42,445 bases of DNA, from positions 1 to 42,445 of the forward strand of contig QBLV01000019.1 of NCBI GenBank assembly GCA_003241815.1, given 5' to 3'. Origin of the DNA: Hyphomicrobiales bacterium (GTDB lineage Bacteria; Pseudomonadota; Alphaproteobacteria; Rhizobiales; Beijerinckiaceae). Each line of letters begins with the position of its first letter. Position 1 is the stretch's first letter. Under the pieces are notes generated by a model, which was given only the letters and a program-made list of their open reading frames with translations, searched no databases and had not been told where the DNA came from. Shown here piece after piece: positions 7,820 to 20,312 of the stretch. The position numbers and the translations under genes are program-made.

Positions 7820-10612
7820 ATGTTGATCCCAGGTCAGAAGACGGGCGCGCTGCTGGCGCGCCGGACAGGATATTCGTTGGAGACCAACCTCTTTCGTTAT
7901 GTCTGGGAGAAGAGCCGCGGCGACCAGATCATCGTCCTGCTGATCATCCTTGCCTCGATCCCGTTCTACTGGGCGTCGTTCGACGTCCCGAAGCGGATCG
8001 TCAACGATGCCATCCAGGGCGGCGCGTTCAAGGATGGCAAGACCAGCACGACACTGCTGGATTTCACGCTGCATCTGCCCTCCTTTCTCGGCGGCACCAG
8101 CTTCAAGCTGTTCGAGGGGTTCCAGGTCGGCCAACTCGGCCTGCTGCTGGGGCTGAGCTTCTATTTCCTCGTCCTGGTGCTGATCAACGGCGCCTTCAAA
8201 TACGTCATCAACCTGCGAAAGGGCATTCTCGGCGAGCGCATGCTCAGGCGCATGCGCTACGATCTGTTCGGCCAGCTCATGAGATTCCGGCCGGAGGATA
8301 TCCGCGCGGTCAAGCCGGCTGAGGTCGCCAGCATGATCAAGGACGAGGTCGAGCCGATCGGTGGCTTCGTCGGCGACGCCTTCATCCAGCCGGTTTTCCT
8401 GCTGAGCCAGGCCCTGACGGCGCTCGCCTTCATCATGGTGCAAAGCGTCTGGCTGGGGTCGATCGCGCTCATGATCGTGCTGGCTCAGGCGATCATCATC
8501 CCGATCCTGCGCCGGGAGCAGTTGCGCCTCGGGCGCGAGCGGCAGATCGCCTCGCGCCAGCTTGCGGGCCGCATCGGCGAGATCGTCGATGCTGGTCCCA
8601 CGATCCAGGCGCACGGCGCGACGAGCTATGTCCAGTCCGACATCGCCGGGCGGCTGGGGCGGCTCTTCGACATCCGCTACGCGCTCTACAAGCGCAAATT
8701 CGCCGTCAAGTTCCTGAACAATCTGCTGGCCCAGATCACGCCATTCTTCTTCTATGCGGTCGGCGGCTTTTTCGCGCTGCAGGGTCGGCTGGACATCGGC
8801 CAGCTCGTCGCCGTCATCGCCGCCTATCGGGACTTGCCGCCGCCGATCAAGGAACTCATCGACTGGGACCAGCAGCGCAACGACGTGACGATCAAATACG
8901 AACAGGTGATCGCCCAGTTCAACACCGACGAGACTCTCGATCTCAACGAGGCGGACGGCGTCACGCGCTTGGCCGAGACCGGAGAGATCAGGTTCGACGG
9001 CGTGCAGATGCTCGACAATCGTGGTCAGCCCCTGCTGACGCCGCTGTCTGTCCGGATCGCGCGACCCGGAACCGTCGCGGTGATCGGCCCTCATGGCGGG
9101 GCGCTTGAAGTGCTTGGCCGCATCCTGGGCCGGCAGTCGATGAGCTACTCCGGCCGCGTCATCATTGACGGCGCGCCCTTGTCGCGTATGTCGGTCGAGC
9201 GGGCGAGCCATCTGATCGGCTATGCCGGCAACGAGACCGAGATCATCGCGGGCACGATCCGCGACAATATTCTGCTGCCGCTGATGCGGCGCAGGCCGAG
9301 TATTCGGCCCAAAGGCAAGGTCACGACTGCCGAGCACTATCGCTTCGTCGAGGCGATCCGCTCCGGCAACACGCCGTTGCCGTTCGAGGCGGACTGGACC
9401 GATTACGAGGGCGCCGGCATCGCCGATGACGCCGCCCTGGCGGCTCGCGTCAGGTCCGTGCTCGACGTGCTCGGCTGCGCGGAGGATGTCTACGAGCTCG
9501 GCCTCGACGGGAAAGTCACCGCATCGCTGCGCGCCGAGGCCAAGGCGCAGATCGTCGAGGCGCGCCAGGCCGTTGCCCAGGAACTCGACCGTAGCAAGCT
9601 TGCGGGGCTGATCACGCCCTTTGATCCGGCCAGCTTCAATGCCAATGCCACGATCGCCGAGAACCTGATCTTCGGCGCCCGCATGGGGCCGCGCTTCGCC
9701 AACGAAACCCTGCTGTTCGAGCCCTATGCGTATGCAATTCTCGAGGCGGAGGCGCTGATCGAGCCCCTGGTCGAGGTCGGCTCACGCATCGCCGCGACCG
9801 TCGTCGAAATCTTCGCCGGGCTGCCGCAGGGCCATGCGCTGTTCGAGCGCTACTCGTTCGCCTCCGGGCTCGACCTCGACAGGCTCGGTGAACTCGCGAC
9901 GCTGCTCAACAAGCACGACATGCGCGCGCCCCTCGACGCCGGGGCGGAGCGCGATCTGGTCGCGCTGGCGCTGGGCTATATCGAGCCCAAGCATCGGCTC
10001 AACCTGCTGGACGAGCGCCTGCAGCGGAGGATTCTGCGGGCCCGCGGGAGCTTCAAGGCGCATCTCCCGGCGGACGCAGCCGAGGACGTCCACTTTTACG
10101 ACCCCGACACGGTCATGCTCGGGGCCAGCCTGCGCGATAATCTGATGTTCGGGCGCATCGGTTACGGCATCGCCGATGCCAACCGGAAGGTTGCGGCGAT
10201 CGTGCGCAAGGCGCTGGCGCGGGCGGGGCTCGACGGCGATCTCTATCGGATCGGCCTCAACACCGATTGCGGCATTCGGGGGCGCTTCCTGCCGACGAGG
10301 ATGAAGCTCGCGGTGCCGCTGGCGCAGGCCCTGATCAAGGCGCCGCAGATCGCCGTGCTGGATGTCGGCGCTTTCCTGGCGACGTCGGCGGAGCCCGACA
10401 AGGTTCTGGCCCGTCTGCGCGAACACTGCGCCGGCATGACACTGTTCCTTCTCGTCGGGGATGCTAGTCTTGTCGCTGACATGCCGATGCGGATCGTCTT
10501 CAACGGCCCGTCCGGAACGATCGAGAGCGAAGACGGGGAGGATGCCAGCGAAGCTGCCACCGCTCCTTCCCGACGGCGCAATGGCGTCCAACAGATGGAG
10601 GCGCGGCCATGA
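7820..10612 (+). CDS. ABC exporter-like membrane protein with degenerate nucleotide-binding domain(s)
   Basis: 930 aa; ABC transmembrane domain (about residues 1-350) followed by NBD-like region whose Walker A (GPHGGALE), Q-loop, signature (FLPTRM), Walker B (IAVLDVGAF) and H-loop are all non-canonical. Confidence 0.85.
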   Translation: MLIPGQKTGALLARRTGYSLETNLFRYVWEKSRGDQIIVLLIILASIPFYWASFDVPKRIVNDAIQGGAFKDGKTSTTLLDFTLHLPSFLGGTSFKLFEGFQVGQLGLLLGLSFYFLVLVLINGAFKYVINLRKGILGERMLRRMRYDLFGQLMRFRPEDIRAVKPAEVASMIKDEVEPIGGFVGDAFIQPVFLLSQALTALAFIMVQSVWLGSIALMIVLAQAIIIPILRREQLRLGRERQIASRQLAGRIGEIVDAGPTIQAHGATSYVQSDIAGRLGRLFDIRYALYKRKFAVKFLNNLLAQITPFFFYAVGGFFALQGRLDIGQLVAVIAAYRDLPPPIKELIDWDQQRNDVTIKYEQVIAQFNTDETLDLNEADGVTRLAETGEIRFDGVQMLDNRGQPLLTPLSVRIARPGTVAVIGPHGGALEVLGRILGRQSMSYSGRVIIDGAPLSRMSVERASHLIGYAGNETEIIAGTIRDNILLPLMRRRPSIRPKGKVTTAEHYRFVEAIRSGNTPLPFEADWTDYEGAGIADDAALAARVRSVLDVLGCAEDVYELGLDGKVTASLRAEAKAQIVEARQAVAQELDRSKLAGLITPFDPASFNANATIAENLIFGARMGPRFANETLLFEPYAYAILEAEALIEPLVEVGSRIAATVVEIFAGLPQGHALFERYSFASGLDLDRLGELATLLNKHDMRAPLDAGAERDLVALALGYIEPKHRLNLLDERLQRRILRARGSFKAHLPADAAEDVHFYDPDTVMLGASLRDNLMFGRIGYGIADANRKVAAIVRKALARAGLDGDLYRIGLNTDCGIRGRFLPTRMKLAVPLAQALIKAPQIAVLDVGAFLATSAEPDKVLARLREHCAGMTLFLLVGDASLVADMPMRIVFNGPSGTIESEDGEDASEAATAPSRRRNGVQQMEARP

Positions 10613-11058
10613 CACTCGAAGCCGATATAGCCTGCCTGGGCCGTCTTCCGCTATTCCGGTCGCTGCCGCCGCCGCGGCTGAAGCTCGTCGCACTGATGGG
10701 CGAGAAGCTACGCTTCGAAGCCGGCGCGCAGATCGTCGAGGAGGGCGAGAAGCCGGCGGGGGTCTATGTCGTCCTGCAGGGCGAGGTCGAGATTGGGCAT
10801 AAGCGCCCCAATGAAGAGGGTACGCGGTTGCAGCTCAACTCAGGCAGCCTGATCGGAGACGTGCCGCTCCTGTCCGGGCACAGCTATGTCGGCGCGGTCA
10901 CGGCCAAAAGCGCGGTCAGCGCGCTGCTCCTGCCGAAGGACCTGTTCTTCGAACTGCTCGAGACGATTCCCGATTTCAGCCTGGCGCTGTCGCGGGACCT
11001 TGCCTCGCGGCTGTACCGGCTGGCCGATTTCACGCTGCACGGGGAGAGGGTCCATTGA
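10609..11058 (+). CDS. Stand-alone cyclic nucleotide-binding-domain-like protein (Crp fold without HTH)
   Basis: 149 aa; LPLFRSLPPPRLKLVALMGEKLRFEAGAQIVEEGEKPAGVYVVLQGEVEI and LIGDVPLLSG; ATGA overlap with the upstream gene. Confidence 0.88.
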   Translation: MTLEADIACLGRLPLFRSLPPPRLKLVALMGEKLRFEAGAQIVEEGEKPAGVYVVLQGEVEIGHKRPNEEGTRLQLNSGSLIGDVPLLSGHSYVGAVTAKSAVSALLLPKDLFFELLETIPDFSLALSRDLASRLYRLADFTLHGERVH

Positions 11059-11074
11059 CGGCGCAGGTGTCGGC

Positions 11075-13039
11075 ATGAGCCTGCAGCAGACGGCCGGCGC
11101 GCGGCGTTCGGGCATGGGCATGGATCACGTCTCGTCGTGGAGCCGCGATATCCGCTTCGCGTCGGGCATGGTGCTGCTTTTCTTCGCGACGACGCATTTC
11201 CTCAACCATGCTGTGGGCATCGCCGGCGTCGCCGCCATGGAGCAGGCGCAGGAGTGGCGTTACTGGCTGTGGCATTCCTGGGCCGGAACGGTTGCGCTTT
11301 ACGGCTCGCTGGTGGTGCATCCGTTCTTCGCGCTCGTCCGTGTCGCGCAGCGCCGCACCTTCAAGATGCCGGCGCGTGAGATGCTGCAGATTGCGCTGGG
11401 CCTTGCGATCCCGCTGTTCCTGGTCGATCACATCGTCGGGACGCGGGTGATGGGCAGCTTCTTCGATTCAGATGAAAGCTATCGCGCCGTCCTGCGTCGG
11501 CTCTGGCCCGGCCTGGTGGCGGGCCAGACGATCCTGCTGTTGCTGGTCTGGGTGCATGGCATTATCGGTCTGCATTTCACGCTTCGCTCACGCGACGGCT
11601 ACCACCGCTGGCGTGATCCCTTCCTGCTCGCCGCGATCCTGATTCCCGTCCTGGCGCTGATCGGATTTGCAGTGGGAGGGCGCGAGGCCGGCCAGATGGC
11701 GATGGCGCCCGAGTTCACCACCGACGCGCAAATCGTGATGTTTAACCAGAACGTGACCTGGGCGAAGACCATCTTCTACGGTCTCGTTGGTGGCTTCGTC
11801 GCTTTCGTGGGCATCCGCGAGATCAGGGTCAGGACTACGCGGCAGATCACGGTGCGCTTCGTCGGCCATGGCGTGCGCAAACTCGCGCCGGGCCTGACCG
11901 TGCTGGAGATGTTCCGGCGCTTCGGCATTCCTCACGCCGCGCTCTGCGGCGGGCGGGCGCGCTGCGCCACCTGCCGCGTGCTGGTGCTGGACGGAGCTGA
12001 CAAGCTGCCGGCTCCCGGCGTGAACGAAGCCAGGCTGCTGCGCCGGATTTCGGCGCCCGAGCGGGTGCGCCTTGCCTGCCAGATCAGGCCGCGCGACGAG
12101 TTGCAGGTCCAGATCCTGCTCGCATCGAGGCTGCGGGTTGCGACGTCCGGCGAGGCCGAACTCGATGCCAGCGTCGGCAAGCGCGGCCTGACGGTCGTCG
12201 TGGCTGATCTGCGCGCCTTCTCCGCCTTGTCCGAACGCCAGCTTCCTCAGGAGTTGATCGGCCTGCTCAACCGGTTCTTCGACGAGATGGCGCAGGCGAT
12301 CTCGGCTCATGGCGGGCGCATAGACGCCTTCTATGGCGACGGCTTCATGGCCGTGTTCGGGTTGGACGGCACTCCGGCCCGGGGCGCGCAGGCGGCGATC
12401 GCTTCAGCCGGCGATATCGTGCGCGCGGTCGAGGCTCTGAACCGGGAATTCGGCGCGGCCCTGCCATTGCCGCTGCGCATCGGTATCGGCATCCATAGCG
12501 GCCAGGCGATCACCGGCGCCGTCGAGAACGACAGTCTCGGCCGCCGCGAGATCACGGTTGGCCAAACCGTGGCGGTGGCAGGCCAGCTCGAGTTGGCAAC
12601 GCGGCGGGTGCTGGCCGATATCCTCGTGTCGGAAGAGACGATTCGGACGAGCGGACGCCGCTATCGCGGCACGACGCAGCTCAAGATTGCGATCCGGGGG
12701 CGCGAGAAGCCCCTCAATGCGGTCGGTTTCGCCAGCGCGCCAGAGATCGCCGACGTCGAGGGCGGGGAAGAAGCCGCTGATGCACATGATGCGCCGATCA
12801 CGGCAGACCTCGTCGACGCAGACCTCGTTGCAGCAGGCCCGGACGAGGCAGATCCGGGGGTCGTCGAGGGCGCCGATGGCGTCACGCGGGTCGCCGGGCC
12901 GCAGGAGGATGTCCTGTCGGTCGTGGCGCGCGGGCAGGCCGCGTCGCCTGACGACCTCCCTCCGGCGAAGGCTCGAAGGTCACCGCGCAGGAAGGCTGTG
13001 GCGATGAAGACCGATGTCCCTGGTCAAGACGGACCTTGA
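11075..13039 (+). CDS. Membrane-anchored 2Fe-2S ferredoxin / class III adenylate-guanylate cyclase-like protein
   Basis: ORF opens at 10886 but ATG at 11075 follows the previous stop; multiple His-containing TM helices, then CGGRARCATC-x34-C ferredoxin-type cysteines, then VVVADLRAFSAL...RIDAFYGDGFMAVFG cyclase domain. Confidence 0.88.
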   Translation: MSLQQTAGARRSGMGMDHVSSWSRDIRFASGMVLLFFATTHFLNHAVGIAGVAAMEQAQEWRYWLWHSWAGTVALYGSLVVHPFFALVRVAQRRTFKMPAREMLQIALGLAIPLFLVDHIVGTRVMGSFFDSDESYRAVLRRLWPGLVAGQTILLLLVWVHGIIGLHFTLRSRDGYHRWRDPFLLAAILIPVLALIGFAVGGREAGQMAMAPEFTTDAQIVMFNQNVTWAKTIFYGLVGGFVAFVGIREIRVRTTRQITVRFVGHGVRKLAPGLTVLEMFRRFGIPHAALCGGRARCATCRVLVLDGADKLPAPGVNEARLLRRISAPERVRLACQIRPRDELQVQILLASRLRVATSGEAELDASVGKRGLTVVVADLRAFSALSERQLPQELIGLLNRFFDEMAQAISAHGGRIDAFYGDGFMAVFGLDGTPARGAQAAIASAGDIVRAVEALNREFGAALPLPLRIGIGIHSGQAITGAVENDSLGRREITVGQTVAVAGQLELATRRVLADILVSEETIRTSGRRYRGTTQLKIAIRGREKPLNAVGFASAPEIADVEGGEEAADAHDAPITADLVDADLVAAGPDEADPGVVEGADGVTRVAGPQEDVLSVVARGQAASPDDLPPAKARRSPRRKAVAMKTDVPGQDGP

Positions 13040-16981: not shown

Positions 16982-17968
16982 ATGATGACAACGACGCCTG
17001 CCGCCGGCCTGCCCGACATGAAGCTGTCGGTGCGCCAGACCTTCGGGATCGATTCGGATCTGGAGGTGCCGGCCTATTCGACGACCGAGGCGCATGTGCC
17101 CGATCTCGATCCGGATTACCGTTTCGACCACGACACCACGATCGCGATTCTCGCCGGCTTTGCCCATAACCGTCGCGTGATGATCTCGGGCTATCACGGC
17201 ACCGGCAAGTCGACCCATATCGAGCAGGTCGCGGCCCGCCTCAACTGGCCCTGCGTGCGCGTCAACCTCGACAGCCACGTTTCGCGGCTCGACCTCGTCG
17301 GCAAGGACGCGATCGTGCTGAAGGAAGGCAAGCAGATCACGCAGTTCCAGGACGGCATCCTGCCCTGGGCGCTGCAGAACAACATCGCGCTGGTCTTCGA
17401 CGAGTACGATGCCGGCCGGCCGGACGTGATGTTCGTGATCCAGCGCGTGCTCGAACAGTCCGGAAAGCTGACGCTGCTCGACCAGAAGCGCGTCATCCGC
17501 CCGCACCCCGCCTTCCGGCTGTTCGCCACCGCCAATACGGTGGGATTGGGCGACACCTCGGGCCTGTATCACGGCACGCAGCAGATCAACCAGGGTCAGA
17601 TGGACCGCTGGTCGATCGTGACCACACTAAACTATCTGCCCCACGACAACGAGGTCGAGATCGTGCTGGCGAAGTCCAAGCACTTCCAGGGCACGCCGGA
17701 AGGCCGCGGCGTCATCGACAAGATGGTCCGCGTCGCCGACCTCACCCGAAACGCCTTCATGAACGGCGATCTCTCCACCGTGATGAGCCCGCGCACCGTC
17801 ATCACCTGGGCCGAGAACGCCGCGATCTTCGGTGATATCGGCTTCTCCTTCCGCGTCACCTTCCTGAACAAGTGCGACGAGATGGAGCGCACGCTGGTGG
17901 CCGAGTTCTACCAGCGCTCCTTCGGCAAGGAACTGCCGGAGAGCGCGGCCAATGTGGTCCTGAGCTGA
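16982..17968 (+). CDS. cobS: Cobaltochelatase subunit CobS (AAA+ ATPase)
   Basis: [76 protein letters not shown]. Confidence 0.96.
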
Positions 17969-17982
17969 CGGGCGTTCCCGCC

Positions 17983-18399
17983 ATGGCGACCCTCCAGCGC
18001 GAAACCGATGTCGCGGCGACGAGGGACGCCGTGGTGGCGGGTCTCAGCGCCTACAACGCCTCGGTCGTCGGGTCGCGTAACAGCGTCCCGCTGGCGCTCA
18101 GCCTGCGCGACGATGATGGCGTCATCGTCGGCGGGTTGATCGGCGAGCTGAAGTGGCAATGGCTCCATGTCGATCTCCTTTGGATCGACGATGCCCATCG
18201 CGGAAAAGGCCATGGCGAGGCTTTGGTCGCCATGGCTGAGAATACCGCGCGCGATCATGGTGCGCGGGGCGTCTATCTGAGCACGATGAGCCTGCAGGCG
18301 CCCGATTTCTATCCGAAGCTGGGCTATCGGCAATATGGCGTGATGGAGGATTATCCCGTCGTCGGCCACCGGATTCACCATTTCGCGAAGGCGCTATGA
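17983..18399 (+). CDS. GNAT family N-acetyltransferase
   Basis: 138 aa; [55 protein letters not shown]. Confidence 0.88.
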
Positions 18400-20312
18400 G
18401 CATCTCCAACCGCAAGCCCGGCCAGTCCAAGGAAGCGCCATCGGAGCCGCTGAAGCGCGCGATTTCCTCGACGATGAAGGCTATCGCCCGCAAGCCGGAG
18501 ATGGAGATCGTCTTCGCGGCCGACAAACCCTCTCTCGTCGGCGACCGTGCCCGCCTGCCCGAGCCGCCGCGCAAGCTGACGGTGCAGGACGTCGCGATTC
18601 TGCGCGGCCATTCCGATTCGATGGCGCTGCGGCTCGCCTGCCATGATGCCAGCGTGCATCGTCGTGCCGCGCCCGAGGGCGATGCGGCGCGCGCCGTGTT
18701 CGATGCGGTGGAACAGGCTCGCGTCGAATGCGTCGGCTCGCGGCGGATGGCCGGCATGGCCGGCAACATCACCGCCATGCTGGAGGACCGCTACCATCGT
18801 GGCGGGCGCTATGAGGAGATCACCGACCGCGCCGATGCGCCGCTGGAGGATGCGCTCGCTTTGATGGTGCGCGAGCGGCTGACCGGCCTGAAGCCGCCCA
18901 AGGCCGCTGAAAAGCTGGTCGATCTCTGGCGCGAGCAGATCGAGGCCAAGGCGGGAGCCGATCTCGACCGGTTGGGCAAGGCGGTCGAGGACCAGCGCGC
19001 TTTTGCCCGCACGGTGCGCGACATGCTGGCTTCGCTCGACATGGCGGAGCAGACCTCGCAGGGCGAGGATTCGGAAGAGGACGAGGACAACAAGGACCAG
19101 TCCTCCGACGAGCAGCAGCAGCAGGATGGCGAGGCCGAACAGGAAAGCGCCGGCGAGCGCTCCGAGGTCGAGGTTTCAGACGATGCCACCGAGGAATTGC
19201 AGGAGGGGGCGAGCGAGGCCTCCGACGCACCCTCGGGCGACTGGGACGACGAGGATGAGAATTCGGAGGCCGACGAGGCCGGCGAGGCGCCGCGCCCGCG
19301 CGAAGGCAAGCCCAACGACCGGCCGCAGACCGACTACAAGCCTTATACGGTCAAGTTTGACGAGGTCGTCACGGCCGAAGACCTATGCGACGCCGAGGAG
19401 CTGACGCGGCTGCGCGCCTATCTCGACAAGCAGCTCGCGAATCTGCAAGGCGTCGTGGCCAGGCTCGCCAATCGGTTGCAGCGGCGGCTGATGGCGCAGC
19501 AGAACCGCTCCTGGCAGTTCGACCTGGAGGAGGGTGCGCTCGACCCGGCTCGCCTGCCGCGCATCATCATCGATCCCTATCAGCCGCTCTCCTTCCGGCA
19601 GGAATCGGACGTCAATTTCCGCGACACGGTGGTGACGCTGCTGATCGACAATTCCGGCTCGATGCGCGGCCGGCCGATCACGGTCGCGGCGACCTGCGCC
19701 GACATCCTGGCCCGGACGCTCGAGCGCTGCGGCGTCAAGGTCGAGCTGCTCGGCTTCACGACGCGGGCCTGGAAGGGCGGGCTCTCGCGAGAGAGTTGGC
19801 TGCAATCGGGCAAGCCGGCCAATCCCGGCCGCCTGAACGACCTTCGCCACATCATCTACAAGGCGGCCGACGCGCCCTGGCGGCGCGCCCGCAAGAATCT
19901 CGGGCTGATGATGCGCGAGGGGCTGCTCAAGGAAAACATCGACGGCGAGGCGCTCGACTGGGCCCATAAGCGCATCCTGGCCCGTCCGGAGCAGCGCAAG
20001 ATCCTGATGGTGATCTCGGATGGCGCGCCGGTCGACGACTCCACCCTGTCGGTCAATGCCGGCAACTATCTCGAGCGGCATCTGCGCCACATCATCGCCG
20101 AGATCGAGACGCGCTCGCCGGTCGAGCTGATCGCCATCGGCATCGGCCATGACGTGACGCGCTATTATCGCCGCGCGGTCACCATCGTCGACGCCGAGGA
20201 GCTCGGCGGCGTAATGACCGAAAAGCTCGCCGAGCTGTTCGAGGAGGATGCCGGGCTGAACGCCAGGTCCTCGGGTGGAAAGTCGTCTGGCGGATCCCGG
20301 CGCCGGCAGTGA
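18396..20312 (+). CDS. cobT: Cobaltochelatase subunit CobT
   Basis: 638 aa; acidic central region and C-terminal VWA domain ([20 protein letters not shown]); syntenic with cobS. Confidence 0.96.

Follow-up and report, generated by a model that had tools for sequence, protein, structure and literature searches.

Probable pseudocyclase in a CyaC-type redox-sensor protein of Bosea: a class III cyclase domain that keeps only its metal site

Class III nucleotidyl cyclases work as dimers in which the metal-binding Asp residues are provided by one chain and the substrate and transition-state residues by the other, a division along which the mammalian C1 and C2 domains have become specialised (PMC4174876). 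Some class III cyclases are active without the transition-state Asn, a position occupied by His in Rv1900c (PMC4886424). In the CyaC protein of Sinorhizobium meliloti, electron exchange between heme and quinone alters cyclase activity (PMC10463352). The 6TM-ferredoxin-cyclase architecture is already known, both from CyaC and from cluster 1 of a previous classification (PMC4821796). In the literature searched, no 6TM-ferredoxin cyclase lineage devoid of catalytic half-sites was found; a search of limited breadth uncovered no described bacterial lineage of class III pseudocyclases, and nothing relevant on ABC-CNBD-cyclase operons or on Bosea cyclases.

The window analysed here, that is, the whole stretch of 42,445 nucleotides, is part of a Bosea genome; the named close matches come from Bosea, and the remaining ones from MAGs or isolates labelled by family or order alone. 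The 654-aa protein under study is encoded within an open reading frame at 10886-13039 on the plus strand, with its likely start at the ATG at 11075. It was compared with 96 usable homologues (52 canonical, 33 from Bosea and 11 other degenerate ones) obtained by surveying about 400 genomes of the order and 199 of the family, a survey that yielded in addition four sequences with a separate Lys-to-Gln change. The gene, its domains and the two genes upstream are arranged as follows:

7820..10612, + strand: ABC-like membrane protein with degenerate nucleotide-binding regions, in ATGA overlap with the next gene
10609..11058, + strand: cyclic-nucleotide-binding-domain (CNBD) protein (Pfam, 52.5 bits), with Tyr93 (codon 10885) at the phosphate-binding Arg position
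11075..13039, + strand: CyaC-like gene, composed of a 6TM diheme-type anchor, a [2Fe-2S] ferredoxin, a class III cyclase domain and a disordered tail
11132..11839, + strand: 6TM anchor with a tetra-His set (H41, H82, H119 and H161; codons 11195, 11318, 11429 and 11555), invariant in 96/96 homologues
11888..12094, + strand: [2Fe-2S] ferredoxin domain (Pfam Fer2, 28.3 bits, above the cut-off), residues 272-340
12188..12709, + strand: degenerate class III cyclase domain (PF00211, Guanylate_cyc), residues 372-545

At the sensor end of the protein, the N-terminal membrane domain gives a weak match to succinate dehydrogenase (SDH) cytochrome b558, and its four His are putative heme ligands. The ferredoxin residues Cys291, Cys297, Cys300 and Cys335 are likewise invariant in all 96 homologues. 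The cyclase domain scores 45 bits against PF00211, for which the cut-off is 21.9, and its low-confidence model matches solved cyclases in Foldseek with TM scores (target) of 0.73-0.77; with pLDDT values of 57 and 54, the structure models are too weak for site geometry and were used for the class III fold only. Full-length alignment to canonical members (33-46% identity), together with the tree described below, indicates common descent with the canonical 6TM-ferredoxin cyclases.

The six catalytic contacts of the cyclase domain were located at the following positions:

12206..12208, + strand: metal Asp378, retained, as in 44/44 members of the degenerate clade
12326..12328, + strand: Ala418 at the substrate Lys position (DKxxGD); Lys in 0/44 degenerate and 52/52 canonical sequences
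12338..12340, + strand: metal Asp422, retained, as in 44/44 members of the degenerate clade
12551..12553, + strand: Ile493 at the substrate Thr/Asp position; Thr kept in 1/44
12572..12574, + strand: Ala500 at the transition-state Asn position (VNxAxR); Asn kept in 0/44
12584..12586, + strand: Gln504 at the transition-state Arg position (VNxAxR); Gln in 33/33 Bosea sequences, Arg kept in 6/44

Four of the six contacts have been lost in Bosea and only the two metal Asp remain. Among the features of an active cyclase, the metal pair is present, the Lys plus Asp/Thr pair is replaced by A418 and I493, and the Asn plus Arg pair by A500 and Q504. The first-pass annotation had already read the metal Asp as retained, the DKxxGD Lys as Ala at codon 12326, and the Asn and Arg of the VNxAxR motif as Ala and Gln. 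All these readings hold in alignments with PF00211 and with the PDB sequences of P. aeruginosa CyaB (3r5g), Cya2 (2w01) and A. platensis CyaC (1wc1), whose columns agree and show no shift onto canonical residues. A frame or alignment artefact is ruled out by the agreement of three independent alignments. The loss at I493 is a fourth one that had escaped that annotation, which covered the cyclase domain; the redox-sensor architecture, the operon and the parallel loss in the CNBD are added here.

These losses are a property of a whole clade. In its 44 members the Lys and the Asn are gone without exception, the Thr in 43 and the Arg in 38, whereas the Lys, Asn, Arg and both Asp are kept in 52/52 canonical homologues. 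The same 44 sequences keep both Asp, the four transmembrane His and the four ferredoxin Cys. Of the thirty cyclase columns that the canonical set conserves with no or one exception, those of K418 and N500 are the only two in which none of the 44 degenerate sequences keeps the canonical residue. Since Lys and Asn are absent from every member of the clade and present in every canonical homologue, the losses lie far beyond chance. All 33 Bosea sequences examined share them: in the orthologues with an intact region the Lys is replaced by Ala (Ser once), the Asn by Met, Ala or Thr, and the Arg always by Gln. In the wider clade the replacements are numerous and unrelated to one another, mostly small or hydrophobic, with A/S/I/Q/T/N/M at the Lys position and A/M/T/S/V at the Asn position. 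Relatives of the same order and architecture carry canonical DKxxGD and GDTVNxASR motifs. In a tree built without the motif columns the degenerate sequences form one clade (support 97/91), sister to the canonical homologue L216 (100/98). On this tree the Asn was lost once, the Arg four times and the Lys twice overall, the second time in a separate group. A single origin of the degenerate clade is suggested and should be held loosely given its long branches. A separate 6TM-ferredoxin cyclase group (L158, L159, L160 and L150) has the Lys changed to Gln (NQFVGDG), displays the motif FVDMRGST and keeps the Asn and Arg; an altered substrate preference is possible for it.

Evidence that the Bosea gene is maintained comes from pairwise comparison of 16 orthologues (median dS of about 0.6 across the three domains), in which dN/dS reaches 0.19 in the cyclase domain, 0.18 in Fer2, 0.30 in the 6TM anchor and 0.68 in the linker. 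These values indicate that the cyclase domain is under purifying selection. Together with the invariant His and Cys, the low dN/dS points to maintenance of the sensor and of the metal-binding half of the active site, the loss being confined to the remaining half. A lone pseudogene or a sequencing error is ruled out by the clade-wide distribution of the losses and by this selection. In the Bosea MAG 12-68-7 / G032 (loci L054 and L067, at about 5170), around 61 cyclase codons are deleted (around residues 409-469) with a change of frame, a lesion that may mean that the domain is dispensable or the gene disrupted, or may be an assembly error.

The gene lies in an operon: the ABC-like and CNBD genes overlap at ATGA, and the CNBD and cyclase genes are 16 bases apart. 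Bosea loci of sufficient length all have the order ABC-CNBD-cyclase, and so do loci of many other families. In CRP- and PKA-type domains the CNBD Arg contacts the cyclic phosphate. This Arg is always present in loci with a canonical cyclase (GEIAILCDVPRTATVRA) and is replaced in all Bosea loci, by Tyr or Phe (Asn once), so that the neighbouring CNBD lacks the phosphate-binding Arg of a functional cAMP-binding domain. The Arg has also been lost in the degenerate locus L204, and the other degenerate loci retain it. This distribution within the cyclase-loss clade fits an order of events in which the writer would have been lost first and the reader later. Because only two independent CNBD losses have occurred, no statistical link between the CNBD and cyclase losses can be drawn. 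A GE-to-GD change in the CNBD means little, as it occurs in two canonical loci too. Across the order, about 30 loci of the ABC-like family were examined: the Walker A Lys is absent from all of them, whether or not a cyclase is present, and the Walker B resembles LIVNR. The ABC-like gene is found with the CNBD gene and is fused to it in L157. The cobaltochelatase genes cobS and cobT (16982-20312 in the window) are located 4 kb downstream of the operon.

The cyclase complement of the genus was also surveyed. When 61 Bosea genomes were searched with PF00211, many yielded a single match. A second profile, built from varied Bosea cyclases, is sensitive enough to pick up the CHASE2 cyclase encoded in the window's genome (6e-56). 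In 15 near-complete Bosea genomes, including one that is a single contig, it detects no class III cyclase but the degenerate gene, and no class I cyclase that could serve as an alternative source of cAMP was found in these 15. The window's own genome (L001) carries a second class III cyclase with canonical motifs (DKLVGD and GDAVNTAARLE), whose CHASE2-type label was assigned by eye and not by profile.

Signalling relays are known among pseudoenzymes, pseudokinases included. The Bosea protein is probably a CyaC-type redox sensor with a 'C1-like' pseudocyclase reduced to its metal site, which would act as a redox-responsive relay that does not use cAMP, being catalytically inactive and signalling by contact. 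Head-to-tail dimerisation of the class III type is probably preserved in the cyclase domain, and D378 and D422 probably still bind a divalent metal, possibly with nucleotide. In neither chain is there a Lys, Thr, Asn or Arg at these positions to orient the base and the ribose or to stabilise the transition state; because these residues are missing on both sides, no physiological production of cAMP or cGMP is expected. The hemes and [2Fe-2S] cluster would sense the redox state of quinone or oxygen and thereby alter the conformation of the dimer, and this change would be passed by contact, instead of by cAMP, to the CNBD protein and the ABC-like protein. It can be proposed more tentatively, as a possible but rather doubtful extension, that cAMP signalling has been dismantled at both writer and reader, the chain surviving as direct protein-to-protein signalling in which the state of quinone, heme and Fe-S cluster reaches the ABC-like protein by way of a pseudocyclase dimer that binds metal and of a pseudo cNMP-binding protein. 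The domain had been proposed earlier to be a pseudocyclase or to have altered chemistry or substrate. The first half of that proposal is backed by the loss of four of six contacts, its genus-wide extent, the purifying selection and the presence of a sole class III chain in 15 genomes; the second half is less likely.

It is unlikely that the domain has kept a nucleotidyl cyclase activity, be it slow or on another substrate, with Gln504 and its neighbours standing in for the missing contacts and the metal Asp remaining catalytic. Such an enzyme would account for the retention of both Asp throughout the clade, the invariance of Gln504 in the 33 Bosea sequences and the selection acting on the domain. 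Single losses do not prove inactivity, since Asn-less class III cyclases can be active and the substrate-pair residues vary (PMC4886424), and six clade members still carry the Arg. However, the four contacts have been lost together and in both chains of the homodimer, the adjoining CNBD reader has no phosphate Arg in Bosea, and the replacements vary without pattern in the clade, which speaks against a shared new substrate pocket. It is quite improbable, too, that the domain serves purely as a scaffold on which a diheme/[2Fe-2S] electron-transfer protein dimerises, with a pocket that binds nothing. The invariant heme-ligand His and ferredoxin Cys and the modelled class III fold are compatible with this idea, but in a scaffold the metal Asp could drift freely, as mammalian C2 shows them to be dispensable for the fold (PMC4174876), and yet they are invariant across a deep clade in which adjoining catalytic positions vary. 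A heterodimer in which the metal Asp come from the Bosea chain, as in mammalian C1, and the Lys, Thr, Asn and Arg from another cyclase chain, as in C2, is very improbable, even though the kept and lost residues follow the C1 pattern and a canonical CHASE2-type cyclase is available in the window's own genome: it is excluded in the 15 Bosea genomes, unless a partner has diverged beyond the reach of a profile sensitive enough to find the CHASE2 cyclase, and no cyclase gene lies between the CNBD and cyclase genes in three distant loci with inserted genes (L128-L130), where the inserted ORFs resemble, by eye, an aminotransferase/desulfurase or an epimerase plus regulator.

The clade offers canonical, intermediate and fully degenerate versions of one three-gene locus, and the Bosea genomes in which this is the sole class III cyclase would show cleanly whether signalling by a cyclase domain can persist without the production of cyclic nucleotides. 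Among described systems, the redox-regulated class III adenylate cyclase CyaC of S. meliloti (SMc01818) shares the 6TM diheme-B tetra-His anchor, the binuclear Fe-S domain and the C-terminal class III cyclase. CyaC reportedly makes cAMP and acts with Clr and CycR (PMC10463352), whereas the Bosea protein is devoid of four catalytic contacts and, unlike CyaC, sits in an ABC-CNBD operon. The same domain order characterises the alpha- and beta-proteobacterial cluster 1 of class IIIb 6TM/ferredoxin proteins, which are described as cyclases (PMC4821796). In Rv1900c and in Bacteroidetes and mycobacterial sets the Asn is likewise lost or replaced, sometimes with Gln among the transition-state residues (PMC4886424); these proteins retain the substrate-specifying pair, while the Bosea protein has lost the Lys and Thr too. 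The C1 domain of mammalian transmembrane adenylyl cyclases likewise keeps two metal Asp and misses the substrate-specifying and transition-state residues, but C1 pairs with C2, and no such partner was found in the 15 Bosea genomes.
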